Below are positions 6,530 through 26,795 of a stretch of DNA of 42,124 bases, in pieces. The stretch covers positions 1 through 42,124 of the forward strand of contig JALEQX010000040.1 in assembly GCA_022763825.1 (NCBI GenBank), read 5' to 3'. Made by a program: the position numbers and the translations under genes. A model generated the notes under the pieces. It was not told where the DNA came from, ran no database searches, and saw only the letters and a list, made by a program, of their open reading frames with translations. The DNA is from Oscillospiraceae bacterium. Its GTDB lineage: Bacteria; Bacillota; Clostridia; Oscillospirales; Acutalibacteraceae. Positions within the stretch are counted from its first letter, which is position 1, and each line of letters starts with the position of its first letter.

Positions 6530-6623
6530 TTTATTGTTCCAAACATAAACATTCTTTATGTAGGGGAAGACAATGGCTTCCCCTACATATTTTGTTTATG
6601 CCTTATAGTAAATTATTGTTTAC
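6521..6623. repeat. Nested inverted repeats between convergent genes
   Basis: The outer arms AAACAATAATTTA (6521-6533) and TAAATTATTGTTT (6609-6621) enclose CATAAAC/GTTTATG (6544-6550, 6593-6599) and an inner ATGTAGGGGAAG/CTTCCCCTACAT hairpin (6558-6569, 6577-6588). The 24 nt at 6547-6570 are identical to 1552-1575. The outer arms overlap the stop codons of both flanking genes. The layout reads as one repeat family inserted in another, and may serve as a bidirectional terminator. Confidence 0.6.
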
Positions 6624-8359: not shown

Positions 8360-8392
8360 AAACACACCATACCTTAGCAGAATATAAATATT

Positions 8393-8420
8393 ATTATAAG
8401 AACATAAATTCAAATGTCAA
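8393..8420 (-). promoter_or_regulatory. Promoter of the dockerin-protein gene
   Basis: Minus strand TTGACA (8420-8415), 16-nt spacer, TATAAT (8398-8393); near-perfect sigma-A boxes 34 nt before the chosen start. Confidence 0.75.
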
Positions 8421-10074: not shown

Positions 10075-10107
10075 AAACAATAATTTACCCCCGGTAAATT
10101 ATTGTTT
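10075..10107. repeat. Perfect AAACAATAATTTACC palindrome inside the 3' end of addA
   Basis: AAACAATAATTTACC (10075-10089) is inverted at 10093-10107 around a short CCC core. It encodes the last seven residues of AddA (TIIYRG plus the split Glu codon) and its stop. Confidence 0.75.
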
Positions 10108-13100
10108 CTCCCTTTTCCAGCGAATATATATACGCCGTGTCGGCGTCGAGTCTCAGCGTCTGTCTCATCGCAAGTATATAAATTTCCATCTGTTTATTAT
10201 ATCTTTCGACAAGCTCCGCAGGGTCGTTCACCTTGTCCGTTTTGTAGTCGACGACGTATGCTCTGCCGTTTTCGACAAACACCGCGTCTGCCATTCCCTG
10301 AACGAAAACGGGCTCGTTTCTTGCGTAATCGGGCAGAGTTTCGTCAAACATATACGCGGGCAGAAAAACGGCGAACTGCTTTTCCCTATACAGCTTTTCG
10401 GCGTTTTTCATTCTCGTGCAAAGCTCACTTTTTAAGAAATCCTTTATCTTATTTTCGAGCAGCGCGCCGCCCTGTTTTTCGTTGAGAATTCCCGAATCGA
10501 TAAGACGGCGTTTTTCTTTTTCAAAGTCGTTTAACGCATTGTCAAAATCGCACGACTGCAAAAACAGGTGATTTGCCGTGCCCCGTTCGCCGGGGGTCAT
10601 GCTCTTGCCGGAGAGAAATGCGGGACGGCTTTTTGCGAAAAATTCGGGTGTGAATTTATTTTTTTCGAATTCGGAAGCCGTGCGTTTGAGCGGAATCGAG
10701 CCGAACGCGGGCTGAGGATAGACGAAAGAACAGCGGTTTTCAAGTTCTTTAATAACATTTTCGTCGGGCTTTACATCAGACGATTCCCCGTCGGAATCGG
10801 AATCATCCGAGCCGTCGTCAGTTACGAATTTAATTGAAAAATCGCCGTCCCTGCCTGCGATGTCGTCGAATGCGCAGTCTTTTCTTATTAATATCGAATC
10901 GGGATGCCTGACGTACGCGCTAAGCAGCCAGTCGAGAAAACTTGACGAGTTCATTGCCTCGAAATATCCGAGACTGTCCGCGCCCGCCGTCAGCAGTGCG
11001 GAGTTGATTCTGTCCGTAATGTCGTTTACGCGGGCGACGGTTATGATTTTTTCACGCGCTCGAGTCAGCGCGACGTACAGAATCCTCAGTTCCTCGGCGC
11101 GCATGCTTTTCTTAGCGCCGATGCGCGCCGCGGAATAACTTAAGGTGTCGTATTTTATGAAATTATCAGGGTCGTATATCTTCATTCCGATACCGGTTTT
11201 CGAGTCGAGAATCATGCTTTTGTTAAGGTCGGTATCGTTGAATCTCGACGAGCAGTCGGCGAGAATTACGAACGGAAATTCGAGTCCCTTTGACTTGTGA
11301 ATGCTCATAATTCTGACAACGTCCGCAGACGCTGAAACGTCGCCTCCCGCGGGAATCTGTGCGCCGTTTTTTATGCTCTTATTAATATATGAAATGAATC
11401 CGCCGACTCCGCCTGCCGTATTTTCCTCGTACTGCGAGGCAAGAGATGAGAGCATGTATAAATTCGTGCGCCTTCCGCCGCCGTGTTCCATTGCCGAAAC
11501 TATCGAGGCAAACGACGTTTCCTCGAGCAGGGCAGAGATATATTCTCCGACTCCCATAACGCTTGACAGTTCGCGGAATTTCTGCATGTCGTTTATGAAA
11601 TGCGCACATTTTTTAAGTCCGTTGTCCGCGCCGATTCTGACGGCGTTATAAAGCGTTTCGCGTGTGTGCGAGCTTCTTATTTCCGCCAGTTCGTCGGGTG
11701 TGAAACCGTATGCCGGCGAGTACATGAGCGACAGAACCGACACGTCATCGGACGGGTTGTCAACCGCCTTTATAAGCGACATAAACATGTTGATTTCCGG
11801 CGTGTCGAAAAGGCTTCTGCGTTTTTCCGCGTACGCGCCTATGCCCATGTCGTTGAGCGCTTTTGCGTATATTTCGGCTTTTGTTTTAGTGCTTCGCAGC
11901 AGAATGCAGAAGTCGCGCGGGGAACATTTCCTGTACGCCCCGCCGTCCTTTACCGTGACGCCTTCGGCGAGCATTGATTTTATAATTTTTCCTATATACT
12001 TTGCGTCGCGTTCGTGGTCGGACGACGACTCGGAAATAAAATGCATCTCCAGCGGTATTTCCTTATCGTCGTTATAAAGTCCGCCGTAGTAAAGTTTTTC
12101 GTCCGAATTATAGTCGATACCGGCAAATGTTTTTGTCATCGTATATTCGAATAAATAATTGACAGCCTCGAGCACGCCTTTTCTCGAGCGGAAGTTTTTA
12201 GACAGAATGATTTTCGACGGGTTCGACGTTGCGTCATACGGCGGATATGAGTCGAATTTTGCCGTAAAGATGTCGGGTCGTGCCATTCTGAATGAATATA
12301 TGCTCTGCTTTACGTCGCCGACGGTGAACAGATTTTTTCCGTCTCTTGATACTGCGGAGAACAGCATGTCCTGAGCGTCGTTCGTGTCCTGGTATTCGTC
12401 TATTAAAATCTCTCTGTATGTTTTCGAAATTGTTTTTGCAAGTTCGGTCGGCTGACCGTCTTTTCCTATTAATATTTTAAGCGCCATGTGCATAAAGTCG
12501 GAAAAATCGTACGCATTTTTCATTTCTTTTAATTCCGACAGATATTCGGCGTATTTGTTTGCGCACAGGCAGATCTCGCCGACTATCGGGGCGAGCGTTT
12601 TTATGTCGTTTTCGTTTTCCTCGTCCGACGCGCAGAACATCGACGCGATTTTTTTAAGCGACTCCTTTGCATACTTTACCGCGCCCTTTACCCTCAGTGC
12701 CTGTTTGTCATCGGCGTGTCCCCTCGGAGCCGTGCCGACTCTCGGCAGAGAGGCTTTGTTTATTTCTCCGGCGGTTTCGTCCCAGCAGTCTGAGTCGGTT
12801 ATCTCGATAAGAGAGTCGAATACGTCCAGAATATTTATCAGCCCGGCGCCGTACGCTTTTGAAAACATTTCGTCGTTTGCTATCGAATCATAAGCGGATT
12901 TTAACACGTTTTTACACGCGGTGAATCCGTCGCGCGCATATTCTTTTATTATGCCCTGCCATTTTTTCGTTCCGTCCGTGCCCGAATACATATTTTTGAC
13001 CGATTCTATGTATTTTTCGGGAAACGGGTAGGAGAGTGAATTTTCATAAAGCTCGAGAATTCTCGAGCACAGTTCGGAGTCGCTGTTTGCAGAGCCTGTC

Positions 13101-13582
13101 GTGTATATGAGCGAATGATAAATTTCCTTTTCGCTTTCCTCGTCCATAACGCGGTTCATGGCTTCGGCGCTCATGTTTTTTTTGTCCGAATCGTCTAAAA
13201 CGGTGAAGTCAGGCTCAACCCCCAGTTCGTGGTAGTTTTCTCTGACGAGTTTAATGCAGAACGAGTCCATGGTGCATATTGTCGCCTCGGGGAGTTTCAT
13301 TCTGATTTCGGAATAAAACGCGTTGTCGGGGTGAGCGCAGATAAGGTCGTTTACGGCTGACGAAATACGTTCGCGCATTTCCGCCGCCGCCGCGTTAGTA
13401 AACGTTACCGCGAGCAGTTCGCTCGGATGAACGGGGTCGTTTTCGTCGGTTAAAAGTCCTATGATTCTCTCGACGAGGACGGCAGTTTTGCCCGACCCCG
13501 CCGCCGCTGAGAGCAAAAGCGTTCCGCTGCGGGCGGTTATAGCGTCGGACTGTTCCTTTGTCCATTTTTTATCTGCCGCCAT
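10085..13582 (-). CDS. addA: AddA, ATP-dependent helicase/nuclease subunit A
   Basis: 1165 aa from the ATG at 13582, which sits 9 nt after GGGGAGG; earlier in-frame starts lie on the ribosome site itself. UvrD/Rep superfamily 1A helicase: Walker A AAAGSGKTAVLVERI near the N-terminus, TFTNAAAAEMRERI, DEYQDTND (Walker B), QSIYSFRMARPDIF, IHKSKGLEFPFV, and YVALTRAREKI. The C-terminal RecB-type nuclease shows GMADAVFVENGRAYVVDYKTDK (catalytic D and DYK). With AddB it resects double-strand breaks and processes them at Chi for RecA. The 5' end overlaps addB by 14 nt. The last residues are encoded by a dispersed palindrome, so the C-terminal tail was probably altered by repeat insertion, after the nuclease motif. 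Confidence 0.97.
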   Translation of the reverse strand: MAADKKWTKEQSDAITARSGTLLLSAAAGSGKTAVLVERIIGLLTDENDPVHPSELLAVTFTNAAAAEMRERISSAVNDLICAHPDNAFYSEIRMKLPEATICTMDSFCIKLVRENYHELGVEPDFTVLDDSDKKNMSAEAMNRVMDEESEKEIYHSLIYTTGSANSDSELCSRILELYENSLSYPFPEKYIESVKNMYSGTDGTKKWQGIIKEYARDGFTACKNVLKSAYDSIANDEMFSKAYGAGLINILDVFDSLIEITDSDCWDETAGEINKASLPRVGTAPRGHADDKQALRVKGAVKYAKESLKKIASMFCASDEENENDIKTLAPIVGEICLCANKYAEYLSELKEMKNAYDFSDFMHMALKILIGKDGQPTELAKTISKTYREILIDEYQDTNDAQDMLFSAVSRDGKNLFTVGDVKQSIYSFRMARPDIFTAKFDSYPPYDATSNPSKIILSKNFRSRKGVLEAVNYLFEYTMTKTFAGIDYNSDEKLYYGGLYNDDKEIPLEMHFISESSSDHERDAKYIGKIIKSMLAEGVTVKDGGAYRKCSPRDFCILLRSTKTKAEIYAKALNDMGIGAYAEKRRSLFDTPEINMFMSLIKAVDNPSDDVSVLSLMYSPAYGFTPDELAEIRSSHTRETLYNAVRIGADNGLKKCAHFINDMQKFRELSSVMGVGEYISALLEETSFASIVSAMEHGGGRRTNLYMLSSLASQYEENTAGGVGGFISYINKSIKNGAQIPAGGDVSASADVVRIMSIHKSKGLEFPFVILADCSSRFNDTDLNKSMILDSKTGIGMKIYDPDNFIKYDTLSYSAARIGAKKSMRAEELRILYVALTRAREKIITVARVNDITDRINSALLTAGADSLGYFEAMNSSSFLDWLLSAYVRHPDSILIRKDCAFDDIAGRDGDFSIKFVTDDGSDDSDSDGESSDVKPDENVIKELENRCSFVYPQPAFGSIPLKRTASEFEKNKFTPEFFAKSRPAFLSGKSMTPGERGTANHLFLQSCDFDNALNDFEKEKRRLIDSGILNEKQGGALLENKIKDFLKSELCTRMKNAEKLYREKQFAVFLPAYMFDETLPDYARNEPVFVQGMADAVFVENGRAYVVDYKTDKVNDPAELVERYNKQMEIYILAMRQTLRLDADTAYIYSLEKGETIIYRG

Positions 13583-16500
13583 TTTTTTCATCCTCCCCAA
13601 AAAGCCAGCTTTCGTCCGTTCCTATGATGTTTTCGTCCCCGCCGTCCTCACGGCAGCAAACCGCGCGGTAGTCGCAGAATTCGCATGTGCGTTCGTACGG
13701 GTGCGAGAGCGTGGGTTTTATCTCTATTTCGCCCGAATGAAGCTCCTCGGCTGTTTTTATAACGGCTTCGTCGACGGCTTCTTTTAGTTTTATAAATTTG
13801 TCATACGTCAGTGCGTAATTTCCGAGTTTGCCGTTTTTAATTATTTTATTTGAAAGAAAAACGCCCGTGCCCGACGAATCCATGCCCGATATAACGCGTT
13901 CGTCGCAGAGAATTACGCCGTTCATTCTGCCGTTGTTGATTCTCGTTTCGTCGATTTTTTCCTGTCCGGCGTTTCGTCCCAGCGAGATATCGCCCAGTTT
14001 TGCCGGCAGGTACAGCACGCCCGCGGGAACGACGTTTCCGTATCTGTCGCCTCCGTTCTGCCACAGGCACATTAAGTATATGAGCATCTGTAAATTGAGT
14101 CCGTACGGCACGTCGGAGAGCTTGAAATCCTTTCCGCCGGTTTTGTAGTCGATTACGCGCACGAATGATTCATTGTCCGTCTTCATAACGTCAACTCTGT
14201 CGACAATTCCGTGAAGCGAAATGGTTCCGCCTCCGGGCAGTGCAAGCGTGTACTCCCTTACCTCGCCGTCTTTCCCTATATTCAATTCGACGTCCGCCGT
14301 TTCGAATTCGCACATGGAAAACTCCGCGATAAGTCGTCTTAAAATAACGTCGATTGTCTCCTCGATTCGTCTTAATCTGTAATCAAGTCTCGTGTCGGAT
14401 TCACCGCTCATCTGAGTTAAAACGTATTCTTCGGCGTATTTTTTTATTTCCGACCGGCGCTCGTTTTCGTCCATTTTTATAAGCTCTTTGTTCGTATGGA
14501 ATCTGAACATGTTTTCGAGCACGTAATGCACGACGAGACCGTGAACCGCGGAGTTGAGCTCCGCTTTTTTCAGCGCCTTAACGCGCAGTCCGAATTTGCA
14601 GAAGTATCTGAACGGACACTTGTGATAGTCCTCGATTGCGCTGGGCGAGAGGTACATGTCTTTTCCGAACAGGTTTTCCGCGTTCTCTCTTTTCTCTATT
14701 TTAGCTGTCTGTCTGTGCGAAGCGCGTTCGAGCGCGAGAACGTTTCCTTTGAAATCCCCGTTTTTCCTTATGAATTCTCTTACTGACTCCGCCTCACTCG
14801 TTTCGACGGTAAAGTTAGCCGCCGCAGTTTCGAACGCCGAAGTGTATGTTTCCGTTCTCTCGAGCGGGGAAAGTTCAACGGTTTGAATTTCTGTACATTC
14901 GGGAACGATTCGTTTGACTTCTCTTAAAATTTCCGATTCGCACGTGTCGGTTCCCGTCATATCAGAGCTCGTACACGAGACGAAAAGCATGTCCGCCGGC
15001 GTCGAAACACAGCGGTAAACGAGGTATCTTTCCTTTGAGGCAAATACCTCGCCGTCCTCGTAAAGTTCTATGCTGTTCTTTTTAAGCTCGCGCCTCTCGG
15101 AGCCTGTGAGAACGAAGCTCGCCGAGTTGTTTTGAGGGAAAACGCCCTCGTTCGCGCCGGCTATGAACGCGACTTTTATATTTTCGATTCTTATTCTCAG
15201 CGCGTCGCCGACGGTGACCCTGTCCTTTTCGCGCGGGATGTCGCCGGTTTCGGCTTTGTCGGTAAAAACTTTAAAAAGCTCGTAAAACCTTTTCGGGCTT
15301 ACTTTTCTGTCCGAAAGGGCGTTATTGAACGAATCGAGCAGAGCCATAAAATCGTCCCATACGCGCTCGCTCCTCAGCGCCAAATCCTCGCGCCGATTCT
15401 GACATAGCTTCTTTGCGGTTTTCAGCATATTTTTATCCGCCGACGAGTAAATAAGAAAATCGTAAAGCGCCTTTATGTAATCGCTTGCTGATTCCGACGA
15501 TTCTATATCGTTTTTTAATTTAATAATCGGGGCGACGATTTTTCTGCGCGATTCGTTTAATTTATCAAGGCGTTTTTTTACCCTGTCGTTTATTTCGAAT
15601 CCGTATCCGTCCGGGTGTCTCGTCCAGTCGGAAAGCCACTGCGCGGGCGAAATGTCCCAAACGACGGTGTAGTTCTCGATGTCGGCAGTTTCGCTCTCGG
15701 TCAAATCGGTATAAAGCGATGTTTTTAAACATTTTAATATATGTTCCGTGTCGAAATTTTTGACAGCGCAGTACAGCGCGCCGTCGGCAAGGCGCACGAG
15801 CGGTTCGTTTTTCATAAGCGAGGTTTCATCCTCGAAAAACCTGACTCCGTATTTTTTAAACTGGGCGGGGAAGTATTTTGAGAATTTTTCGCCCCTGCCG
15901 ATTACGGCGAAGTCGGAATACCGGTATCCCTTTTCCCTGACGAGCCTGCGGATTGTGCACGAAATGAACGAGGCCTCGTCAGCGGGATCATTTGCCCTGC
16001 ACAGAGTAACGCGGTTCGTATTTCCGTTGAATGTTTCGGGGACGGGAGAGTATATATTATCCGACAGAATTTTTAATTCGTCCGATTTTTCCGTTTCATA
16101 TTCGCATTTTTCGGCAGAGATTTTAACGTTAAGCCTTTTTGCCGTCGATTTTAATCTGCTGACGGTGCCGAACGTGTAGTAAAAAACGTCCGTTACGTTC
16201 TTTTTGCCCGAAACGGCGTCGCAGCACACTGCAATGTAAACGTCACGGCACTTCTGTATGAGCGCGGAAATGAGCGCGTACTCCTGCGCGGTGAAACCGC
16301 TGAATCCGTCGATGAATACCGTCTTATTATTTAAAATATCTGTATTCAGCACCGCCTCTGCGCACAGCGTAAGTTCGTCCGAAGCGTCAGAAAAACGTTC
16401 TGAGAGTATAGCGTTATAGGCGGAAAAAATCAGGTTTAATTCTTCCGCTTTTTTTTCGAGAATTTCGTTTCCCGTCTTAATGCATGCATTTTTGAGTTCA

Positions 16501-16901
16501 TCCTGTTTCACTCCGCACTGGGAGAATTCGTCGGCGGCGCCGAGCAGTCCGCCCACGGCGTTTCCCGTTGTGCACCGAGAGAAAATATCGAGCGAATCGC
16601 TGACGCTCTCGACAGCCGTGCTCATAATAACCCTCCGGCTGTTTTCGTCGGCGGCAGGCTTACGGTCGGGGTAAAATACGTCCGTGATTTTTTTTGCAAG
16701 CCTTTTGAAGCTGAGCACGTCGGCTCTGTCGGTTTTGTCCGCGCCGACGAGCGAGAGAATGTCGCTCTCGCTTCTGAATGAATCCTGCTCCGGGGTTATA
16801 AATAAAATATCGCCCGAACCCGAGAGAATCATCTCGGCGATTATATTTTTAATTTTGTAGGTTTTTCCGCTCCCGGCTTTGCCGTAGATAATTTTCAGCA
16901 T
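13569..16901 (-). CDS. addB: AddB, ATP-dependent nuclease subunit B
   Basis: 1110 aa, family-typical length. It has an N-terminal Walker A motif (GKAGSGKT, residues about 6-13), an inactivated helicase body and a C-terminal RecB-type nuclease domain (VRVIDYKTGGKDF). The four cysteines of the iron-sulfur staple are visible: one in YHKCPFRYFC and three in TCEFCDYRAVCC. In the complex AddB recognises Chi and cuts one strand. It is translated ahead of addA, with a 14-nt overlap. The start ATG at 16901 has only a weak ribosome site (GGTGAT). The gene begins 39 nt after the GH2 gene with no terminator between, so it may be read from the GH2 promoter. Confidence 0.96.
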   Translation of the reverse strand: MLKIIYGKAGSGKTYKIKNIIAEMILSGSGDILFITPEQDSFRSESDILSLVGADKTDRADVLSFKRLAKKITDVFYPDRKPAADENSRRVIMSTAVESVSDSLDIFSRCTTGNAVGGLLGAADEFSQCGVKQDELKNACIKTGNEILEKKAEELNLIFSAYNAILSERFSDASDELTLCAEAVLNTDILNNKTVFIDGFSGFTAQEYALISALIQKCRDVYIAVCCDAVSGKKNVTDVFYYTFGTVSRLKSTAKRLNVKISAEKCEYETEKSDELKILSDNIYSPVPETFNGNTNRVTLCRANDPADEASFISCTIRRLVREKGYRYSDFAVIGRGEKFSKYFPAQFKKYGVRFFEDETSLMKNEPLVRLADGALYCAVKNFDTEHILKCLKTSLYTDLTESETADIENYTVVWDISPAQWLSDWTRHPDGYGFEINDRVKKRLDKLNESRRKIVAPIIKLKNDIESSESASDYIKALYDFLIYSSADKNMLKTAKKLCQNRREDLALRSERVWDDFMALLDSFNNALSDRKVSPKRFYELFKVFTDKAETGDIPREKDRVTVGDALRIRIENIKVAFIAGANEGVFPQNNSASFVLTGSERRELKKNSIELYEDGEVFASKERYLVYRCVSTPADMLFVSCTSSDMTGTDTCESEILREVKRIVPECTEIQTVELSPLERTETYTSAFETAAANFTVETSEAESVREFIRKNGDFKGNVLALERASHRQTAKIEKRENAENLFGKDMYLSPSAIEDYHKCPFRYFCKFGLRVKALKKAELNSAVHGLVVHYVLENMFRFHTNKELIKMDENERRSEIKKYAEEYVLTQMSGESDTRLDYRLRRIEETIDVILRRLIAEFSMCEFETADVELNIGKDGEVREYTLALPGGGTISLHGIVDRVDVMKTDNESFVRVIDYKTGGKDFKLSDVPYGLNLQMLIYLMCLWQNGGDRYGNVVPAGVLYLPAKLGDISLGRNAGQEKIDETRINNGRMNGVILCDERVISGMDSSGTGVFLSNKIIKNGKLGNYALTYDKFIKLKEAVDEAVIKTAEELHSGEIEIKPTLSHPYERTCEFCDYRAVCCREDGGDENIIGTDESWLFGEDEKNGGR

Positions 16902-16940: not shown

Positions 16941-19091
16941 TTACATATTTAATATTTTCTTTGTCTGTTCGTGTTTTTCGTGTTTTAATAAAAGCGTATA
17001 CGAATTTTCCTCGCCCTTGTCGGTTTTCAGTGTGAGCGTGATTTCGTCCGAGTCCGATTCCGGCAGTATCATTCTGAGGGTCGGACCGATTTTATTCGTG
17101 CGCTCTTTGACTTCGCCCGCTTCCCACGTAAGCAGTTCGTACGTTTCGTTTCCTATCGTGAGATACGCCGTGATTTTTCTGTGAACGCATTCGTTCGAAT
17201 CGTTTAAAAGCCATATTTCCGACGAGAATATTTCGCCCTCTTTAAAGTCGAATTTCGGAATTCTCGCGCTTGCAAGCACGCTTCTAAGCGAATCCCTCAC
17301 CGCATAATATGCAGGCTTCTTTTTGAGCGGATATTCCATAAGCGAATTATTCGCCGCCGTAATCCACGGCTCGTTAAAGCACCAGTTTATCGCCATTGAA
17401 CAATACGGCCATTGCCTGCGGGCTTCCTCGAACGCGCCCTTATAGCCGACCGCCTGCATTTTCTGCGTGCGCTCGACGGCTGTTTCGACGTCTCCGACCT
17501 CGCCGAAATAATATTCGAGCGTTTCGGGACTGCTCCAGCGCGATTCTCCCCACGCTCCGAACGCGTGATGATGAACCCACGATTTCGTCGGGGAGAGCGA
17601 TTGAATCTCCTCGGGCGGAATTATTTTTTTAAGGTTTTCGACGCTCGAAATCGACGGAACACCAAACTCGCTGTACGCGGTGCATTTCGAATTATTAAAT
17701 ACCTCGAACACGTCTTTTCCGTCGTCGTATCTGAAAAGATAACCGCCGTGACCCATTCCGGCAATCGGCGAGGTCATCATAAACGGTCTCGATTCGTCGA
17801 GTTCATAGCATATTGAGTTTAATAATCTCAGCGGCTTCGACTGGTCGTCCATTCCGCTCCAGTCGTTGAAAAGCTCGTTGCCTCCGCACCAGAACGCAAG
17901 GCATGCGTGTGAGCGGAGCTTCTTTATTATCGAGCGCGCCTCTCTGTTTAAAATTTCGAGGTAATGCTCATCGTCGGGGTAGTTGTTGCACGCGAGCATG
18001 AACTCCTGCCAGACGAGAATTCCGTACTCGTCGCACGAAGAATAAAACGCGTCCTTCGTAATGCCCGAACCGCCCCATACTCTTATGATATTCATATTCG
18101 CTTCGTATGCCGATTTAACCGTTTCAATGAGCGTTTCGTCCGTAGTATTTCCGACAAACAGCTCTGAATTTACGTAGTTCGAGCCCTTTGCGAATATTCT
18201 CCTGCCGTTTAACTCAATCGTAATCGGCGCGGGGTAACGGCTTTTGGGAAACTCGGTGAGTATCTGCGCGCCTTCGTTTTTTACAAGTCTCAGCGTTTTG
18301 AATCCTATTTTTCCTGTTTTTTCGTCCGTCCGGCTTTTTGCCGTCCAGGTGTAGAGATACGGCTCGCCCTGACCCGCGCACCACCACAGATTTACGTCGT
18401 TTAATGTAAATTCGTTGTTTTTTGACTCGTAAACGGTTTTTCCGTCCGCGTCTTTCAGCGTATATAAAACTTCGTCTTTACATTCCGTTTTAAAACGCAC
18501 TTTCGCCGTACGGGTATTGACGTCGAGCGTATAAAACGGCTCGCACGACTCTATGAAATACTCGTCCCGCGTTTCAATGTACGAATCGAGCCACATGCCC
18601 GATATGAGCAGTCTCGGGTTCCAGTCCCAGCCGTAGCAGAACGGCGGTTTGCAGCTGTGCGAAGCCTCGTCGCGGGTGTCCTTTTCGCCCGGTCCGTTCT
18701 TGGGATGGGGATAAATTACGACCTTTATTTCCGTTTTCCTACCGTCATCAATTTGACTCATTAGTTCTAATGAGACGGGTGTGTACATGCCTTCGTTTTC
18801 GTAGATTTTTTCCTCGTTTATATAAACGGCGTACGAATAGTCAATGCCCTCTGCGGTGAAAAACGCGCGTTCGTTTTCCTTTTTGTTAAATTCGGCAAAA
18901 CAGCGGTATTCCCATGTGAAATTTTCCGTCTTTCTTAAAATCTCCGAATTGTCCGAGTACATTATGTCCCCGGCGTTTATGTATTTAAGATAATCTCTCT
19001 GTACGTTTCCCGGCACGTCTGCATGAAACCATTCCGTTTTTGAATTATCGGGTTTTACCGCGCGGGCTTCCCACTGCTGATGATAGCGCAT
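16941..19091 (-). CDS. GH2 beta-mannosidase-like glycoside hydrolase
   Basis: 716 aa, somewhat shorter than typical GH2 beta-mannosidases (about 820). No signal peptide, so cytoplasmic. The N-terminal jelly roll starts directly with WEARAVKPDNSKTEWFHADVPGNVQRDYL, and the immunoglobulin-like part follows. The catalytic TIM barrel shows FWCGGNELFND (Glu acid/base) and YSEFGVPS (Glu nucleophile), with KGSNYVNSELF and NIIRVWGGSG ahead of them; both are typical of the mannosidase branch. It would release terminal beta-mannose from imported mannooligosaccharides or N-glycan cores. Promoter at 19121-19149; AAGGAG 9 nt before the ATG. The shortness seems to lie in the C-terminal accessory domain. Its stop is also followed by a TAAACAATATT repeat-like sequence. 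Confidence 0.88.
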   Translation of the reverse strand: MRYHQQWEARAVKPDNSKTEWFHADVPGNVQRDYLKYINAGDIMYSDNSEILRKTENFTWEYRCFAEFNKKENERAFFTAEGIDYSYAVYINEEKIYENEGMYTPVSLELMSQIDDGRKTEIKVVIYPHPKNGPGEKDTRDEASHSCKPPFCYGWDWNPRLLISGMWLDSYIETRDEYFIESCEPFYTLDVNTRTAKVRFKTECKDEVLYTLKDADGKTVYESKNNEFTLNDVNLWWCAGQGEPYLYTWTAKSRTDEKTGKIGFKTLRLVKNEGAQILTEFPKSRYPAPITIELNGRRIFAKGSNYVNSELFVGNTTDETLIETVKSAYEANMNIIRVWGGSGITKDAFYSSCDEYGILVWQEFMLACNNYPDDEHYLEILNREARSIIKKLRSHACLAFWCGGNELFNDWSGMDDQSKPLRLLNSICYELDESRPFMMTSPIAGMGHGGYLFRYDDGKDVFEVFNNSKCTAYSEFGVPSISSVENLKKIIPPEEIQSLSPTKSWVHHHAFGAWGESRWSSPETLEYYFGEVGDVETAVERTQKMQAVGYKGAFEEARRQWPYCSMAINWCFNEPWITAANNSLMEYPLKKKPAYYAVRDSLRSVLASARIPKFDFKEGEIFSSEIWLLNDSNECVHRKITAYLTIGNETYELLTWEAGEVKERTNKIGPTLRMILPESDSDEITLTLKTDKGEENSYTLLLKHEKHEQTKKILNM

Positions 19092-19220: not shown

Positions 19221-20507
19221 TTAATCGTTATCCTCGCCGGCAAACTTGATTATCGTGTTGAGGATAATTTCGTAGCCCGTCTTGATAGTCTCGGGAACGA
19301 GTCTGTCATAGCTGTCGCGTCTGTTGTGGTAGTAGTCCGCGGGCGCGGGATCCATTGCCGCGAGAGTTGCCGCTCTGATACCCGCCTGAGCGTAAGCCGC
19401 CGCGTCGGACGAGCCGAAGAATACATTTGCGTACTTGAGATTATCGTGACCCATTTCAGCCGCCGCCTCTCTGACTATAGAGCAAAGCTCCTGGTCAAGC
19501 TTGACGGTGCCGGTCATGTCCTTATTGTAAACATTGAGATCCTTAAGGTCGGTGAGCGTGTCTACGCAGAGAACGACGGTCTCTACGTTCGGATCGGTAA
19601 GTTCGTCGTGATGCGCCTTTGCATAAGCCTTTGCGCCTCTGAGTCCCGCTTCCTCTCCGTCGGTTATCATGCAGACAACCTCTGTGTTTTCGAATTTGAG
19701 ATCCATTTCATCGAGCATTTTAAGTGCGCAGACAGCCGCGAGGGTACCCGTCAGGTTGTCGTTCGCGCCGGGGGAAAGAATGGAGAAGTTAATGAATCTG
19801 TTGAGCAGAAACATGCCTATGAGCGTAAGAGCGTGAACGGGGAACGCAGCGTCGGTGATGAAGTCTGCAATTTTGCTCTTTTTGCCGGAAGCCGAGAGAA
19901 CCGCTGAAGTCGACGAGAGAACCGCTGAGATTATTGCGGTGACAATCGACGTACCCATGAACGGTCCCATGAGTTTGCCCTTGCCGTAGTAAATATGTCT
20001 CCACTCGTAAGCGGTGTCGATGTGTCCGCTTATGATAATGCGCTTTTTGGTCTCGCCCTTTGCCTTGCGGACTGCAATCATGTTGCTTCCGTCTGCCTTG
20101 GGATAGAATTTATCGAGAAGCTCTCTGTAAAACAGGAATTCGCCCGCCGTGATTCCGAGCGAAACAAGGTCTACGCCCGCGATAAGAGCGTGGGGAAGAG
20201 TTTTTCCCGCCTTTGATTTGGGTTTAAGTCCGTATTTTATCGCGCCTGCGCCGAGAATCGAAGCTCCGACAGCCGTGCTTACTCCCTTTGTAAAGTGGAG
20301 AAACGCCTTAGGTGCCATCTCATAGGATTCGTAATGAATCTCGTCGGCAAACTTTTCGAGTTCTTTTTCGAGAATTTTCTGCGCTTCCTTTGCCTCTTTG
20401 CTTCCCGATTCTCTCGGGCCTACTTTTTTTACGATTTCGGTAATTTTATCCACAGAATATTTAACACTGTCGGATATAACCTTGTCGTCGATTCTTTTAA
20501 CTGCCAT
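19221..20507 (-). CDS. M28-family metallopeptidase with embedded membrane segments
   Basis: 428 aa. Zinc-ligand pattern of M28 aminopeptidases: H162 and D164 (GHIDTA), D250 (GANDNLTG), E285/E286 (DGEEAGLRG), an Asp in VLCVDTLTD (about 320) and a His in YYHNRRDSYD (about 394). Unusually, four hydrophobic stretches lie within the fold: about 76-94, 104-126, 183-206 and 220-245. The last two sit between the first His ligand and the bridging Asp. No signal peptide. It may be a membrane-associated peptidase whose zinc-site loops pass through or lie on the membrane. The start has AAGGAGAGG; promoter at 20580-20608, terminator at 19154-19188, so it is monocistronic. Substrate unknown. Confidence 0.85.
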   Translation of the reverse strand: MAVKRIDDKVISDSVKYSVDKITEIVKKVGPRESGSKEAKEAQKILEKELEKFADEIHYESYEMAPKAFLHFTKGVSTAVGASILGAGAIKYGLKPKSKAGKTLPHALIAGVDLVSLGITAGEFLFYRELLDKFYPKADGSNMIAVRKAKGETKKRIIISGHIDTAYEWRHIYYGKGKLMGPFMGTSIVTAIISAVLSSTSAVLSASGKKSKIADFITDAAFPVHALTLIGMFLLNRFINFSILSPGANDNLTGTLAAVCALKMLDEMDLKFENTEVVCMITDGEEAGLRGAKAYAKAHHDELTDPNVETVVLCVDTLTDLKDLNVYNKDMTGTVKLDQELCSIVREAAAEMGHDNLKYANVFFGSSDAAAYAQAGIRAATLAAMDPAPADYYHNRRDSYDRLVPETIKTGYEIILNTIIKFAGEDND

Positions 20508-20668: not shown

Positions 20669-20696
20669 TTGTATTTTTAAACAAAATAGATATAAT
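20669..20696 (+). promoter_or_regulatory. Promoter of the four-paralog cassette
   Basis: TTGTAT (20669-20674), 16-nt spacer, TATAAT (20691-20696), followed by a 5' leader of about 80 nt that ends in GAGGAG before the first gene. The leader shows no obvious riboswitch fold. Confidence 0.6.
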
Positions 20697-20786
20697 GTGT
20701 TTGCCTGTTACTAACTTTTTATTGCAAAGGTTTCAAGGTTATGTTAAGATATGTACTGTATAAATATTATGAGGAGTAATATATAT

Positions 20787-21758
20787 ATGGATTATAAATT
20801 TATAATAATTATATTAATTGTGATTCTCGCCGTCGTAATTATCGCAGTATCGGCTGTTAAGTCGAAAAAGAAGAAGGCTCAGAGTGAGAATAAGTCCCTC
20901 GCGCCCATGCCCGAGGTGTCGAAAGATACGTTAAACCTCGTTAACGACGTTTACGACGAGGTGAAAAAAGAAAGGGAGGAATCTCTGAAGGCGATTTCCG
21001 ACGAGGCTGTACCGCCGATGGACGACATACTTTTAAACGATATCGACCCGGAGCTGTTAAACGATATTGATCCCGAGTTTCTTACGGAACTTACGTCGTC
21101 GGATTCCGATTCCGCCCTCAGAGCCGAGAAAACCGAGGGTCACGACGAGATTACCTCGCTTGTTTCCGTCGTGGATAAAGAAGACGAAAAAACCGAGTGC
21201 GGTTCTCTGCCCGAGTGCGTAAAGGCGTACCTTGAAAACAGCTATTATCTAAAGGGCAGGTCGTTTTCCGAAAAGCAGATAAAGAATACGTTTATCGCCA
21301 TAGAGGGAAATGACGTAAGACTCAGCACGAATATCGACTCAAGGGAAATTGAGGTCATCATAAAGGATTCGAACGTTTATCTCGTAAATCCCGTAAATAA
21401 AAAGTACATGGAAATGTCCAAAAAGCTGATGAAAATGCTCGGCAAGGGCGAGGATGATTTTGATTTTAATTCCGTAGGAGTTTCGGAAAATATGAGAAAT
21501 TCCGCGTGCTTGAAATTCCCTGCGTCCGTCGACGGCTTAACATGCGACTGCTATGAATTCAAAACGGACGAAAGAGTGCTGAAACTCTACGTTTCGACCG
21601 AGGGAGAATTTAAACTGATGATGAATTACGACGTCTCCGGCGAACTTGTCAGCGCGCTTAAAACAGATGAATTTATCCCGCATGCCGGCAGTGATTATAT
21701 AAATTTCGATTCACTTAAAAAAGTAGGAATGATGGCGTTTTTCTCCGATATGGTATGA
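20787..21758 (+). CDS. Cassette protein 1: membrane-anchored paralog without zinc ribbon
   Basis: 323 aa from the ATG at 20787, which follows GAGGAG by 10 nt; upstream in-frame Met codons have no ribosome site. One hydrophobic helix (residues 4-23) is followed at once by KSKKKK, then an acidic linker with the near-repeat LLNDIDPELLNDIDPEFL (about 85-103). The C-terminal 180 residues match the other three cassette proteins: VYLVNPVNKKYMEM, a Cys-Tyr pair (CDCYEF) and an IPHAGSDYINF end. By the positive-inside rule the Lys cluster after the helix would put the C-domain in the cytoplasm, opposite to paralogs 2-4. The fold pattern (beta strands around YLVNP..KKY) recalls LolA/LppX-type lipid-carrier lipoproteins, but there is no lipobox. 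Function unknown. Confidence 0.8.
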   Translation: MDYKFIIIILIVILAVVIIAVSAVKSKKKKAQSENKSLAPMPEVSKDTLNLVNDVYDEVKKEREESLKAISDEAVPPMDDILLNDIDPELLNDIDPEFLTELTSSDSDSALRAEKTEGHDEITSLVSVVDKEDEKTECGSLPECVKAYLENSYYLKGRSFSEKQIKNTFIAIEGNDVRLSTNIDSREIEVIIKDSNVYLVNPVNKKYMEMSKKLMKMLGKGEDDFDFNSVGVSENMRNSACLKFPASVDGLTCDCYEFKTDERVLKLYVSTEGEFKLMMNYDVSGELVSALKTDEFIPHAGSDYINFDSLKKVGMMAFFSDMV

Positions 21759-21768
21759 GAGGTGCATG

Positions 21769-22665
21769 ATGGCTTCCGACGAAAAAAAGAATTCCGTCCC
21801 GTCGGATTCGACGGATATTGATGAAAAAAAGCATAAAAAAAATAAAAAAGAAAAAGAAATCAACGGTGTTGTTATCGTAAATAAAAAAGGTCCTTCGGCA
21901 AAGCCCGTTATTATGGGGATTGTGCTTGTTATTCTCATCGCTGCGACTGTAGGAGCCATTACATATTTTATTGAAAATAAACCCGAAATGCCGAGCGAAA
22001 CAGCCGTCGAAACGACCGTTAATACCGTGCAGAGCGGTAATTTGCTCGACACTCCCGCTCAGGCGACCGCTCCGCTGACAACCGTTCCCGAGGTTACAGA
22101 ACCGAAGGTAGTGCTTGATTCCGACGCCGAAACGTTCGCCTCGGGCACATATACGCTCGACGGCACGGTTTATGTTTCGGGCGGTTCGGGCGGTTACGCC
22201 GTCAGCATCGCAAGCTCTCGGACGTATACGGAAATTTCGGGTCTGTGCTCGGGCATGTGGCTCGGCGTTATGAAAAAGAACGGACAGAAATATCTGCTTG
22301 ACAACGAGAGTAAAACGTATATAGACTTCACCGAGGAAGCGTATGAAAAACTCGGCGTCGATAAAATTCCCTATGACGTAGACCTTCCGGGCGATATTTC
22401 GTCGTGTGAATTCAAGCGTGCAGACGTTCTGTTAAACAACGACAGCGCGGTTTGTTACGGAGTCGACTATAACGGCGGTCACGCAGATATCTACACGGTG
22501 AACGGAGTTCTCAAACAGTTCGTAATATTTGCCGAGGACTACACCCCGCTTTATGAGGTTATCGTTAACAGCATATCCCCCGCCGTACCCTCAGACCGTA
22601 TTACCGCATCGGGATTTGCTAAGAGCACGTCAATTTTCTCGTTTTTCAGTGCGCTTGCCTCATAA
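21769..22665 (+). CDS. Cassette protein 2: membrane-anchored paralog with Lys-rich N-terminus
   Basis: 298 aa from the second of two adjacent ATGs (21769), which is better spaced from AGAGG than 21766. A highly charged N-terminal tail (KKHKKNKKEKE) leads to a membrane helix at residues 46-67, so N-in, C-out. A Thr/Val/Pro linker follows, then the shared C-terminal domain (about 120-298): QKYLLDNESKTYIDF, the conserved Cys-Tyr (AVCYGVD) and VPSDRITASGFAKSTSIFSF at the end. The domain begins with TFASGTYTLDGTVYV. It starts 10 nt after gene 1. No zinc ribbon here. No enzymatic motif is visible; the domain looks like a ligand-binding or structural beta-rich module. Confidence 0.8.
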   Translation: MASDEKKNSVPSDSTDIDEKKHKKNKKEKEINGVVIVNKKGPSAKPVIMGIVLVILIAATVGAITYFIENKPEMPSETAVETTVNTVQSGNLLDTPAQATAPLTTVPEVTEPKVVLDSDAETFASGTYTLDGTVYVSGGSGGYAVSIASSRTYTEISGLCSGMWLGVMKKNGQKYLLDNESKTYIDFTEEAYEKLGVDKIPYDVDLPGDISSCEFKRADVLLNNDSAVCYGVDYNGGHADIYTVNGVLKQFVIFAEDYTPLYEVIVNSISPAVPSDRITASGFAKSTSIFSFFSALAS

Positions 22666-22730
22666 AATGCAGGTCTTTACAATAATAATTAATCGGAACG
22701 TCATGTTCCGTATGAGGAATGATATAACTA

Positions 22731-23696
22731 ATGAAATGTAAAAACTGCGGTCACGAGATGATCGACGGAGTTTACCGTTGCATGAACTGCGGGGCGTTTG
22801 CGCCCGACCCGTATTCGGATTCGGACGGCGGTCATAAGCAGGAGGACGATTTTTCCATAACCGATAAAATCAACAACTCCGCCGTACAGTCCGTTTCGAA
22901 AACGAGCAGTCAGGTCGACCCGTTAAAAATACTTAAACCGATTATAATATGTCTTGTCTGCGTTATCGCAGTGTGCGCCGTTGTGCTTATAGTTTTGCAG
23001 AAAAAGCCCTCGGCTTCAAACGACGCCCGGACAACGGTTCCCGCACAGACCGGGGTAACAACGTCGAATGTTCAGAACAATCAGCAGGCGATAGCCGACG
23101 AGCATTTACAGCAAAATAACGCAAACACGCCCGAGTATAAGGCGTATTCGTGCGAAGGTTTTGTCGCTCTTATTTCGAATTCTTTTTACATGGTATGCAC
23201 CGTTCCGGATTCTTCGGGAGCCGAGACGAATTTCTCGATTGCCGTGTCGGGTTCGGACAGCGAAATTTCGTACGATATGGATTCTATGAAAATCGCGCTT
23301 ATGAATTTAAACGGCGAAACGTACCTTGTAAATCCTAAAAACAATACGTATGTCAACGCTTCGAAAACGATGCTTTCCATGATGGGAATCAGTGACGATG
23401 ATTTAAGTTTTGATATGATGTGGCCGGATAAAAATACGAAATTTACATTCGAGGACTCTCAATATGATTCAAAGGACGCAGTCTGCTGTACATATACGGA
23501 TTCCGACGGCGTTCTGACGAAAATTTATATAGTCGACTCGAAAATTGTCGACATAGATTCCTGCGACTCTTCCGGAAACGCCGTAAGCAGTATTAAAGTT
23601 TCGACTCTTACGGGCAGTATTCCCGCGGATCAGCTGACGCTCACGGGAAAACAGACAGCAGGCATGATGAATTTCATAACAAATCTGATGAACTAA
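22731..23696 (+). CDS. Cassette protein 3: zinc ribbon, membrane helix and shared extracellular domain
   Basis: 321 aa. N-terminal zinc ribbon with C3, C6, C17 and C20 (MKCKNCGHEM...YRCMNCG). Then an Asp-rich tail, a membrane helix at residues 69-90, a Thr/Asn/Gln linker, and the shared C-terminal domain from about 140: GETYLVNPKNNTYVNASK, AVCCTYTDSDG and IPADQLTLTGKQTAGMMNF. Predicted topology is zinc ribbon inside and domain outside. The gap of 65 nt from gene 2 contains a small CGGAAC/GTTCCG hairpin (22694-22710), which may tune expression of genes 3 and 4. The ribosome site (GAGGA) is 12 nt from the ATG, rather far. Zinc-ribbon plus single-helix proteins are common in Clostridia; this C-domain I cannot name. 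Confidence 0.8.
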   Translation: MKCKNCGHEMIDGVYRCMNCGAFAPDPYSDSDGGHKQEDDFSITDKINNSAVQSVSKTSSQVDPLKILKPIIICLVCVIAVCAVVLIVLQKKPSASNDARTTVPAQTGVTTSNVQNNQQAIADEHLQQNNANTPEYKAYSCEGFVALISNSFYMVCTVPDSSGAETNFSIAVSGSDSEISYDMDSMKIALMNLNGETYLVNPKNNTYVNASKTMLSMMGISDDDLSFDMMWPDKNTKFTFEDSQYDSKDAVCCTYTDSDGVLTKIYIVDSKIVDIDSCDSSGNAVSSIKVSTLTGSIPADQLTLTGKQTAGMMNFITNLMN

Positions 23697-23709
23697 GGAG
23701 GAACATCAA

Positions 23710-24753
23710 ATGAACTGTAAAAAATGCGGTAAGGAAATTCCCGAGGGCAGAGAGTACTGCGCCGACTGCGAAAGAGAAATTGCTCTTGCGGATATGGCGG
23801 CGGGCGCTCAGAACAACGTCCCCGACGGAAAAAAGGGACTGAGCAAAAAGGCGATAGGCATTATAATCGCGGTATGCGCCGTTGTCGTAATCGCCGTCGT
23901 CACCCTCATAATTGTATTTTCAAATAAAAACGATTCAGGCAACGAGCCGAGCAGTATAAGAGAATACGTAAGTTTTTACACCGACGAGAGCGGAAACGAA
24001 AAACAGGTTATTGTTACCGAGAAGGTTCCCGCCGAGGAAGGTAAAATTGACAACGAAAACAATCAGAATATCGGCAATAACGACAATGTAAACACGCCCG
24101 TAACCAAAAAACCGACGACCACCGTTCCTGCCGAGAATCCCAATAAAATCGGCAACGAGGTCAAGGAGGATAAGGTTAAAGTTGAGAGCAAGGTTCAGAA
24201 TTCTCTGACTGCGTTTTTCAGCGGTAAATTCTATTACGACGGCGTTATGTACGACCGGTCCGGCGAGACGACGAGAATGAAAATCGCCGTCAGCGGAAAT
24301 GACCTCGAGGCTATAATGTATGACTCGGGTATGGGCGTAAACATGGGCGTTATGCAGTTGGACGGCAAGACGTATATCGTAAATACCGATAAAAAAGAGT
24401 ATATCGAGTTTACAAAAGAGCTCGGCGATATGTTCGGTATTAATACCGAAGACCTTAAGTTTGACGATTTGAGCAAGATGTTTTCTTCTCGCAGTTCCGA
24501 GCCCGACGCCCAGTATTCGACTACCGTCAACGGCAAGGACGCGACCTGCTATGAGTACGTAAGTTCCGATAAGTCCACCATGACCAAATTCTATTTTGTC
24601 GGCAAGGATTTAGTAGAGCTTGACCAGACAGATTCCGACGGCGCGCCTATTTCTCAGACCATGATAAACGAGTTCTCCTATTCGATTCCGTCCGATATGC
24701 TCACACTCAACGGGCTTAACAAGGCATCCTCGATCATGAACATGCTTCAGTGA
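23710..24753 (+). CDS. Cassette protein 4: zinc ribbon, membrane helix and shared extracellular domain
   Basis: 347 aa, preceded by AGGAGG in the 13-nt gap from gene 3. Zinc ribbon C3, C6, C17, C20 with exactly the CX2C-X10-CX2C spacing of paralog 3; membrane helix at about 48-70 preceded by KKGLSKK (N-in); Asn/Thr-rich linker with long polar repeats (about 110-150); then the shared domain: FFSGKFYYDGVMYD, IAVSGNDLEAIMYD, GKTYIVNTDKKEYIEFTKEL, ATCYEYVSSDK and IPSDMLTLNGLNKASSIMNM. Within the family it is the closest match to paralog 3. The transcript probably ends in the hairpin at 24811-24866. Function unknown; the fold resembles LolA/LppX-like carriers only in general pattern. Confidence 0.8.
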   Translation: MNCKKCGKEIPEGREYCADCEREIALADMAAGAQNNVPDGKKGLSKKAIGIIIAVCAVVVIAVVTLIIVFSNKNDSGNEPSSIREYVSFYTDESGNEKQVIVTEKVPAEEGKIDNENNQNIGNNDNVNTPVTKKPTTTVPAENPNKIGNEVKEDKVKVESKVQNSLTAFFSGKFYYDGVMYDRSGETTRMKIAVSGNDLEAIMYDSGMGVNMGVMQLDGKTYIVNTDKKEYIEFTKELGDMFGINTEDLKFDDLSKMFSSRSSEPDAQYSTTVNGKDATCYEYVSSDKSTMTKFYFVGKDLVELDQTDSDGAPISQTMINEFSYSIPSDMLTLNGLNKASSIMNMLQ

Positions 24754-24781
24754 TGCCCAACCGTGCATGACGGCGCAGACC

Positions 24782-24894
24782 GAAAAGCAAAACGGAACAA
24801 TATAATATAACGAACCGCAGAGTATTATACGGGATTTAATGTTACCGTCAGCTTTGCGGTTTCTTATAATTTAGTATTTGATGTTTTGCTTTTC
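24782..24894. repeat. Nested inverted repeat enclosing the cassette terminator
   Basis: GAAAAGCAAAAC (24782-24793) is perfectly inverted at 24883-24894. Inside is the hairpin AACCGCAGAG (24813-24822) against CTTTGCGGTT (24852-24861), the likely terminator of the four-gene cassette. The 22 nt at 24803-24824 recur exactly at 25126-25147. Confidence 0.6.
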
Positions 24895-24898
24895 TAAG

Positions 24899-24965
24899 CG
24901 TTTTTTCACCCTCTCGCAGTACTTATGTACGGCTTCGGGGATGAAGAAAACGCTTTGGGCATCCG
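24899..24965 (+). repeat. 67-bp hairpin repeat, copy 1
   Basis: Starts CGTTTTTTCACCCTCTCGC and ends GCTTTGGGCATCCG. GCGTTTTTTCACCC at its left can pair with GGGGATGAAGAAAACGC at its right, giving a long imperfect stem-loop with a GTAC..GTAC core. It is nearly identical to copy 2. The open frame across both copies looks incidental (no ribosome site). Confidence 0.75.
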
Positions 24966-25008
24966 CCCTGCGCGGTTCGGGAGGTCTCTTCTTCTACGGC
25001 GCACAAAA

Positions 25009-25076
25009 CGTTTTTTCACCCTCTCGCGGTACTTTATGTACGGCTTCGGGGATGAAGAAAACGCTTTGGGCATCCG
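25009..25076 (+). repeat. 67-bp hairpin repeat, copy 2
   Basis: Differs from copy 1 by one A-to-G change and one inserted T. The start-to-start distance is 110 bp; the 43-bp spacer (24966-25008) is unrelated. Confidence 0.75.
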
Positions 25077-25125
25077 TCTCAAACAGTCCGGGAAGTTTGA
25101 TTTATAAATTTAATTTATAAAAATG

Positions 25126-25190
25126 TAATATAACGAACCGCAGAGTACAGGACGGGGTTTTCTCTTACCGTCTGCTCTGCGGATTTTTTT
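25126..25190 (+). terminator. Second copy of the AACCGCAGAG hairpin terminator
   Basis: CCGCAGAG (25138-25145) pairs with CTCTGCGG (25175-25182), followed by a T8 run. The left flank is identical for 22 nt to 24803-24824, so the terminator pair brackets the two 67-bp repeats. Confidence 0.7.
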
Positions 25191-25209
25191 TGTTTGGGAT
25201 TTGTCGTTG

Positions 25210-25238
25210 TTGACAGTCGTTTTTTTGTATGGTATATT
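25210..25238 (+). promoter_or_regulatory. Consensus promoter for the MGH1-like glycosidase
   Basis: TTGACA (25210-25215), 17-nt spacer, TATATT (25233-25238); start of translation at 25275. Confidence 0.8.
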
Positions 25239-25274
25239 AAAATTCACAATAATAAGCACGGCGGAGGATTTTTT

Positions 25275-26795
25275 ATGGGCGGGTATGCCGATATATACGT
25301 AGACGATAAATTTTATTCAAAGAACGAATTTATAAACATGAAGGCGGATTTTTCCGATCTTCCGAAATACGAGGATATAAAAGATTCTCTTCCCGAACCC
25401 GTGTGGGACGGACATTCGGACGAGATAAAAGCTTATTATAAAGCGTGGGAAATTGCGTTTTCGAATCTCGGCAAACCTACAAAGGAGAACGGCTTTGTCT
25501 CGCCGTACATTGACGCGGCGTTCAACGGCTGCATTTTCATGTGGGACTCGTGCTTTATGCTGATGTTCGGCAAGTACGCCGACAATGTTTTTTCGTTTCA
25601 GAAAACGCTCGACAACTTCTACTGCAAGCAGGAAAAGGACGGATATATAAGCCGTGAGATAAGCGAGGAAAACGGCAGGGGCAAGTTTTACAGACACGAC
25701 CCCGTCAGCACCGGACCCGAAATTATGACCTGGTGCGAGTGGCAGTATTATAAGAATTACGGCGACAAGGACAGGCTTAAAAAGGTATATTATCCTCTGT
25801 TAAGTTATCACCGCTGGCTTAAGGCGTATCACCGCTGGCCCGACGGAAGCTACTGGTCGTCGGGCTGGGGATGCGGAATGGACAACCTCCCGCGCGCGGA
25901 TATGGAGGCTGTCCCCGGAGCCGAGGATTGGCACCTCGAAACATTTCATCACAGCTTCATGTCGTGGGTCGACGCGACAATGCAGGCTGCAATGGCGTGC
26001 GAACATCTGATACTCATGGCTGACGAGCTGGGCATAACCGACGGCGTTGAAGAACTTGAGGACGAACGTGAAAAACTCATCTCCTATATCAATGATAAAA
26101 TGTGGGACGAAAAGGACGGTTTCTACTACGACAGACGTTCTAACGGCGAATTGTTAAAGGTCAAATCCGCCGCCGCATTCTGGTCGCTCATTTCGAAAAC
26201 CGCGCCCGCGGGCAGGGTCGAGCGTATATGCGCTCATCTTGAAAACAAAGACGAGTTCAACCGCAAAAACCGCGTGCCCGCACTGAGCGCGGATCACCCC
26301 GATTTCAGCTCCGACGGTCACTACTGGAACGGCGGAGTATGGCCGCCCGTCGTTTACATGGTTCTGACCGGACTTACCGCGAATTTAAAACACGAATCGG
26401 CTCACGATATCGCCGTGTGCAATTATAAAAATATGATTGAGGTTTTCCGCTCCACGGGTACTTTGTGGGAAAATTACGCTCCCGACAAGACCGCGCCCGG
26501 CAAGCCCGCGAAAGGTGACTTTGTAGGCTGGACGGGAATTCTGCCGATTACCATGCTTATAGAATACATATTCGGAATTCAGATTTCCGCCGATAAAAAC
26601 GAAATTGTATGGCGTATAAACGAGCTTGACAGACACGGATTCAATAATCTCCCCGTCGGCAGGGATTCGTATGTTTCGCTCGTATGCGAAAAGAGGAATT
26701 CGAAAAACGAAAAGCCCGTTGTAAACGTAAAGAGCGATAAAAAACTTACCGTAAAAGTAATTTGGAACGACGAATCGTTTATTGTAAATACGTAA
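25275..26795 (+). CDS. Trehalase/MGH1-like (alpha/alpha)6-barrel glycoside hydrolase
   Basis: 506 aa from the ATG at 25275, 8 nt after GGAGG; the longer upstream frame overlaps the promoter and is rejected. No signal peptide, so cytoplasmic. The sequence matches the GH63/GH37-related MGH1-like superfamily: IFMWDSCFMLMFGKYA at about 100, YISREISEENGRGKFYRHDP, a WSSGWGCGMDNLPR block that probably carries a catalytic acid, GHYWNGGVWPPVVYMVLTGL, and a C-terminal GWTGILPITMLIEYIFGI. Such enzymes hydrolyse alpha-linked disaccharides or glucosylglycerate/mannosylglycerate. The exact substrate cannot be read here. Single-gene unit between promoter 25210 and terminator 26801. Confidence 0.8.
   Translation: MGGYADIYVDDKFYSKNEFINMKADFSDLPKYEDIKDSLPEPVWDGHSDEIKAYYKAWEIAFSNLGKPTKENGFVSPYIDAAFNGCIFMWDSCFMLMFGKYADNVFSFQKTLDNFYCKQEKDGYISREISEENGRGKFYRHDPVSTGPEIMTWCEWQYYKNYGDKDRLKKVYYPLLSYHRWLKAYHRWPDGSYWSSGWGCGMDNLPRADMEAVPGAEDWHLETFHHSFMSWVDATMQAAMACEHLILMADELGITDGVEELEDEREKLISYINDKMWDEKDGFYYDRRSNGELLKVKSAAAFWSLISKTAPAGRVERICAHLENKDEFNRKNRVPALSADHPDFSSDGHYWNGGVWPPVVYMVLTGLTANLKHESAHDIAVCNYKNMIEVFRSTGTLWENYAPDKTAPGKPAKGDFVGWTGILPITMLIEYIFGIQISADKNEIVWRINELDRHGFNNLPVGRDSYVSLVCEKRNSKNEKPVVNVKSDKKLTVKVIWNDESFIVNT

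Follow-up and report, generated by a model that had tools for sequence, protein, structure and literature searches.

The contig JALEQX010000040.1 of an Oscillospiraceae bacterium (Acutalibacteraceae; assembly GCA_022763825.1) encodes a cluster of four adjacent genes on its + strand, here termed open reading frames (ORFs) 1–4 (Table 1). The window analyzed is this whole stretch of 42,124 nucleotides (nt). Within the cluster, 65 nt separate ORF2 from ORF3. By ORF calling and hydropathy, each of the four proteins consists of one membrane helix, followed by a linker and a C-terminal domain (C-domain). An earlier note on this DNA had described four neighboring membrane proteins that share a C-terminal domain and differ in their front modules, and our analysis confirms both observations. 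ORF3 and ORF4 begin with the four-cysteine pattern CX2C-Xn-CX2C of the PF13240 zinc ribbon, read in the sequence; the PF13240 model scores 23 and 16.2 bits on them, respectively, and neither reaches the 25-bit cut-off. The ratio of nonsynonymous to synonymous substitutions against the sister-species copy is 0.11 for ORF1, 0.148 for ORF2, 0.143 for ORF3, and 0.07 for ORF4; the C-domains are under selection and strongly conserved.

Table 1. The four-gene cluster, its parts, and flanking genes in the window
Feature	Position	Strand	Description and basis
ORF1	20751..21758	+	335 amino acids (aa), likely start 20787; short N end, helix, long acidic linker, C-domain; ORF call, hydropathy
ORF1 C-domain	21201..21755	+	Predicted LolA fold
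ORF2	21766..22665	+	299 aa; lysine-rich N end, one membrane helix, Thr/Pro linker, C-domain; ORF call, hydropathy
ORF2 membrane helix	about 21886-21978	+	Hydropathy
ORF2 C-domain	22111..22662	+	Same family as ORF1/ORF4 C-domains
ORF3	22731..23696	+	321 aa; zinc ribbon, one membrane helix, linker, C-domain; ORF call, hydropathy
ORF3 zinc ribbon CX2C-X10-CX2C	22737..22790	+	Read in sequence; PF13240 E 6.6e-5
ORF3 membrane helix	about 22911-23018	+	Hydropathy
ORF3 C-domain	23133..23693	+	Same family as ORF1/ORF4 C-domains
ORF4	23710..24753	+	347 aa; zinc ribbon, one membrane helix, long linker, C-domain; ORF call, hydropathy
ORF4 zinc ribbon CX2C-X10-CX2C	23716..23769	+	Read in sequence; PF12773 E 0.008, PF13240 E 0.0093, both under cut-off
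ORF4 membrane helix	about 23833-23934	+	Hydropathy
ORF4 C-domain	24175..24750	+	Predicted LolA fold
M28-type peptidase	19221-20507	-	E 2.5e-21, flank
GH2-type glycosidase	16941-19091	-	E 4.2e-20, flank
MGH1-like glycoside hydrolase	25194-26795	+	E 8.1e-39, flank

Structure prediction indicates that the C-domains are LolA-type β-clams. Two divergent C-domains, those of ORF1 and ORF4, were modelled separately, and both models match the LolA superfamily over nearly the whole model, with 3–18% identity among the matches listed. Each model has one N-terminal helix, 11 strands, and a helical lid between strands 6 and 7. These are the features of the LolA fold superfamily (LolA, LolB, RseB/MucB, LprG/LprF, VioE, EPDR1), in which a helix accompanies an 11-stranded half-barrel with a lid. 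ORF2 and ORF3 are tied to this superfamily through sequence. The C-domain had been called unnamed, and direct scans of ORF1–ORF4 bear this out in that none of the Pfam or NCBIfam models scores above its cut-off there; the fold, however, is that of a named superfamily.

Profile comparison indicates that the domain is homologous to a named member family of this superfamily, DUF4412. Profiles A2 (14 domains) and A4 (57 domains, mean column identity 22%) were built from homologues in the same genome and its relatives; a third profile, A3, is centered on the window. A4 derives from 66 domains in 64 proteins, of which two with E > 1e-8 were removed and the other 64 thinned to 57 at ∼85% likeness, with the window ORF4 copy substituted for its sister copy. 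When the 57 domains were compared singly with Pfam, the commonest matches, among the 25 of 54 families listed, were the weak ones to DUF4412 (3/57, best E 0.0026) and LolA (3/57, best E 0.0054); the remaining listed families each matched a single member. None of the window ORFs matches PF14371 (DUF4412, cut-off 21.6 bits), and the best of the 57 domains lies under that cut-off, judging from its E-value. In single pairwise hhalign comparisons with nine DUF4412 proteins, A4 gave E 1.4e-12 (probability 97.7), A2 gave E 3.2e-6 (88.0), and A3 gave E 1.1e-3 at a probability of only 20.0, so the link to DUF4412 is firm only with the wider family. None of 252 shuffled or reversed controls fell under E 1 (best 1.5).

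Genome searches in both directions point the same way. Across 398 genomes of the phylum, A4 found matches in 26, the genome of the window included. Eight of nine other A4 loci in the phylum encode lipoproteins by eye, and the ninth, L121, is cut at its start. Five A4 loci were scanned with Pfam: L123 and L124, from one genus, exceed the DUF4412 cut-off (34.9 and 39.0 versus 21.6 bits), L120 and L126 give sub-threshold matches, and L122 gives none. Conversely, the DUF4412 model found nine matches in 199 genomes of the phylum, one per genome, all small secreted proteins or lipoproteins save L136 (363 aa). Four of them (in G287, G333, G418, and G460) coincide with places found by A4. The other five were absent from the results of the A4 genome search; scored directly, four of these match A4 (4e-10 to 3e-7) and L136 does not. 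L123 also shares the aligned hairpin VYVYQPEQK, the cysteine strand KKCLVYE, and the end IPDSMFELPEG. By profile comparison, the C-domain is the same domain as that of the DUF4412/LolA_like lipoproteins (PF14371, PF17131). The resemblance to LolA/LppX proposed in the earlier note is thus upheld by both structure and profile comparison, and kinship with a LolA-like family extends to all four proteins, although an established role does not. Searches of solved structures by sequence gave six matches with profile A1, the best at E 0.43, and none with A2. Matches of A4 to a carboxylesterase (E 0.0083) and a MarR regulator (E 0.2) were judged to be chance.

The domain is expanded and recombined in relatives of this bacterium. 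At E 1e-3, A2 matches 46 of 250 genomes of the same family, spread over 27 of 135 genera, with 10 matches in the genome of the window, 12 in G001, 8 in G104, and 7 in G213; the rows that built A2 match it by construction. We sorted 64 member proteins by rule, counting sister-species copies and keeping the two weak members left out of A4 (L092, 2.8e-4, and the first member at L117, 1.4e-3). A lipobox is present in 19 by rule and in 21 after two more were added by eye. Fifteen have a hydrophobic N end followed by a dockerin-like doublet; among four of these scanned with Pfam, three exceed the dockerin cut-off and L081 falls under it (19.6 versus 22.9). A helix or signal alone is found in 13 (including the two lipoproteins assigned by eye), a zinc ribbon with a transmembrane (TM) helix in seven (four of them from the window and its sister), and a helix with another inner part in eight; two are truncated. 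In one of these eight, L097:3863-5656, a protein kinase match (E 6e-8) lies inside, followed by one TM helix and the LolA-type domain; the Asp residues of HRD and DFG are missing by eye, so it looks like a pseudokinase. In L096, a metallophosphoesterase (E 2.1e-8) precedes the LolA-type domain. In two genomes, sequence likeness makes it likely that the domain has recently been exchanged among distinct front parts: a lipoprotein and a dockerin protein at L089, one gene apart, are 71% alike over 206 residues, and L096 and L110 are 56% alike over 180 residues. A lipoprotein at L137:4173-5828 (- strand) has a run of short YTYNxDGSYTV-type repeats before its LolA-type domain. Beside or near members, L085:7501-8562 and L107:3171-4010 encode other membrane proteins, whose N ends bear CX2C pairs and which the domain profile does not match. 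A pattern scan of genome contigs (141 stretches, two distinct loci) was superseded by these whole-genome profile searches; among 163 pattern stretches in viral contigs there were no relatives.

How the four genes arose can be traced in part. In a maximum-likelihood tree of the 57 domains, whose bootstrap is not fully settled, ORF3 and ORF4 are sisters (94/69), which supports tandem duplication for this pair. ORF2 groups with a lipoprotein from elsewhere in the same genome, L036 (91/60), and ORF1 stands apart (83/50). The earlier note derived all four from repeated tandem duplication; such an origin in situ, with the copies sharing out one job, is doubtful, although forcing them into one clade costs 11.15 log units and is not rejected (approximately unbiased test, p 0.175). 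The zinc ribbon common to ORF3 and ORF4 fits such a history; the linkers of the four, mostly unrelated, do not.

The lipoprotein members have a characteristic neighbor. A short-chain dehydrogenase/reductase (SDR) gene lies directly 3′ on the same strand, with a gap of -14 to 105 nt, in 17 of 21 lipoprotein members and in none of 43 other members; because the loci share descent, this count does not yield a clean p-value. For the split, the lipoprotein rule was checked by eye, TM-protein loci were left out by hand, and the zinc-ribbon protein L101 was counted as non-lipoprotein. Two of the 17 SDRs were compared with NCBIfam, and both pass the model for the elongation factor P (EF-P) 5-aminopentanone reductase YmfI (264.8 and 255.3 versus 238) as well as a FabG subfamily model. 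The genome of the window has its own lipoprotein–SDR pair on contig C79 (L036:6120-7601), and we infer that the lipoprotein–SDR pairing as such is the ancestral arrangement. Gene context was read for a chosen subset of loci rather than for all A2 matches. One cluster of neighbors near members proved not to be a single family, its proteins being joined merely by shared dockerin domains. At L046 and L115, dockerin–LolA genes adjoin N-acetylmuramoyl-L-alanine amidase (Amidase_3) genes, which recalls GerS and CwlD.

We conjecture, with a probability of about 0.5, that the four proteins are tethered LolA-type clams that act as envelope sensors or chaperones. A helix and flexible linker would present their C-domains on the outer side of the cytoplasmic membrane, as judged from relatives, which include lipoproteins and secreted dockerin proteins. 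LolA-superfamily proteins are usually extracytoplasmic, VioE excepted. As in other members of the superfamily, the concave face would most likely hold a hydrophobic or amphiphilic ligand (a lipid tail, lipoprotein, or membrane-active peptide) or a protein partner. Stationary sensors or chaperones appear more likely than free shuttles, given the helix that anchors each protein, the putatively cytosolic zinc ribbon of two of them, and the kinase-like inner part of one relative. The four may also form hetero-oligomers. Several observations weigh against this proposal. In ORF1, KSKKKK immediately follows the membrane helix and hardly any positive charge precedes that helix; the positive-inside rule would then predict a cytoplasmic C-domain. 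Only one protein shows the kinase-like form, every zinc ribbon scanned in the window and relatives scores under its Pfam cut-off, and among the loci read, the four-gene set occurs in only two genomes, both of its own genus. The strands were also checked crudely for alternating hydrophobic residues, with a null result: 757 of 2000 shuffles reached the observed value.

The main competing explanation is that the domain binds protein rather than lipid and switches a cell-wall enzyme or signalling partner on or off. GerS, an extracytoplasmic lipoprotein of Clostridioides difficile with a LolA-like fold, has a sporulation role in which a strand-swapped dimer binds CwlD and regulates this amidase, showing that such a fold can work through a protein partner (PMC8496864). 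As described, GerS resembles the present proteins in its fold and its origin in Clostridia and differs in its sporulation role and CwlD-bound dimer. None of the four flanking genes scanned encodes an amidase, and the amidase adjacency elsewhere amounts to two loci. RseB carries an additional domain and exerts its effect on the anti-sigma factor RseA (PMC6363788); neither a second domain of this kind nor an RseA-type partner was seen here, though none was looked for. A regulator of the GerS or RseB kind seems improbable.

Less probable still is a relay in which a lipid or lipoprotein moves outward across the wall from one of the four proteins to the next, every one serving as a carrier. LolA, LolB, and LprG, which have the same fold, carry lipoproteins or lipids (PMC6363788), and the cluster places four copies side by side on linkers that vary in length. 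Yet scanning four flanking genes revealed no transporter, and all four proteins appear tethered. LolA proper works together with LolCDE and LolB to reach an outer membrane, which bacteria of this kind, to our knowledge, lack. Generic surface or secreted display is very unlikely; here the domain would serve for adhesion or as a decoy, and its dockerin forms would dock onto cohesin scaffolds. The 15 dockerin-like members and the likeness of the L089 pair suit it, as do the 43 dockerin matches (E up to 1e-3) in this genome, together with a single cohesin match that exceeds its cut-off; it accounts for the dockerin forms, but not for zinc-ribbon membrane forms with strongly conserved C-domains.

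The best-studied LolA-type domains serve as carriers or stress sensors in the envelopes of Gram-negative bacteria and mycobacteria, with GerS, VioE, and EPDR1 as exceptions. The family is a real, unusual expansion of an already known fold, not a new kind. Here the domain is joined to a membrane helix, a zinc ribbon, or, in relatives, a dockerin; in Clostridia it has been expanded and recombined with kinase-like, dockerin, and transmembrane parts. The analysis provides these hypothetical proteins with a predicted fold and a lipid-binding hypothesis. More speculatively, and with odds well against it, the clam could be a general-purpose receptor module in these Clostridia: an SDR-adjacent lipoprotein ancestor would have given rise, through repeated domain transfer, to tethered sensors with zinc-ribbon or kinase-like parts and to secreted dockerin forms, leaving about ten different receptors in one genome for envelope lipids or lipid-like signals. 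Searches of open-licence literature found nothing on DUF4412, nor on the LolA fold with a Gram-positive lipoprotein. On a zinc ribbon combined with LolA and a TM helix, this literature offered a LolA-like lipoprotein that shares an operon with cpCone-1, which is a different arrangement, and the entries listed for LolA with a protein kinase extracellular domain in Clostridia held nothing relevant.

The M28 peptidase gene lies beside the cluster, on the opposite strand, in both members of the genus, and one gene from a lipoprotein member in G200; we do not take this proximity as a functional link. A 90 nt terminator-like unit 3′ of ORF4 is duplicated at 24796 and 25119 (window 24796-25208), with copies 77% alike. 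The same region holds a repeat pair ∼110 nt apart, at 24896-24985 and 25006-25096, whose exact pattern occurs once in the genome, at 24898. One of the genome's 43 dockerin matches (type I, 3.6e-5, over cut-off; G000:C93:6656-6808) falls in a 597-aa ORF at 6620-8413 (- strand). Two long overlapping ORFs of 1171 and 1110 aa at 10085-16901 (- strand) resemble by eye an AddA/AddB helicase-nuclease pair.
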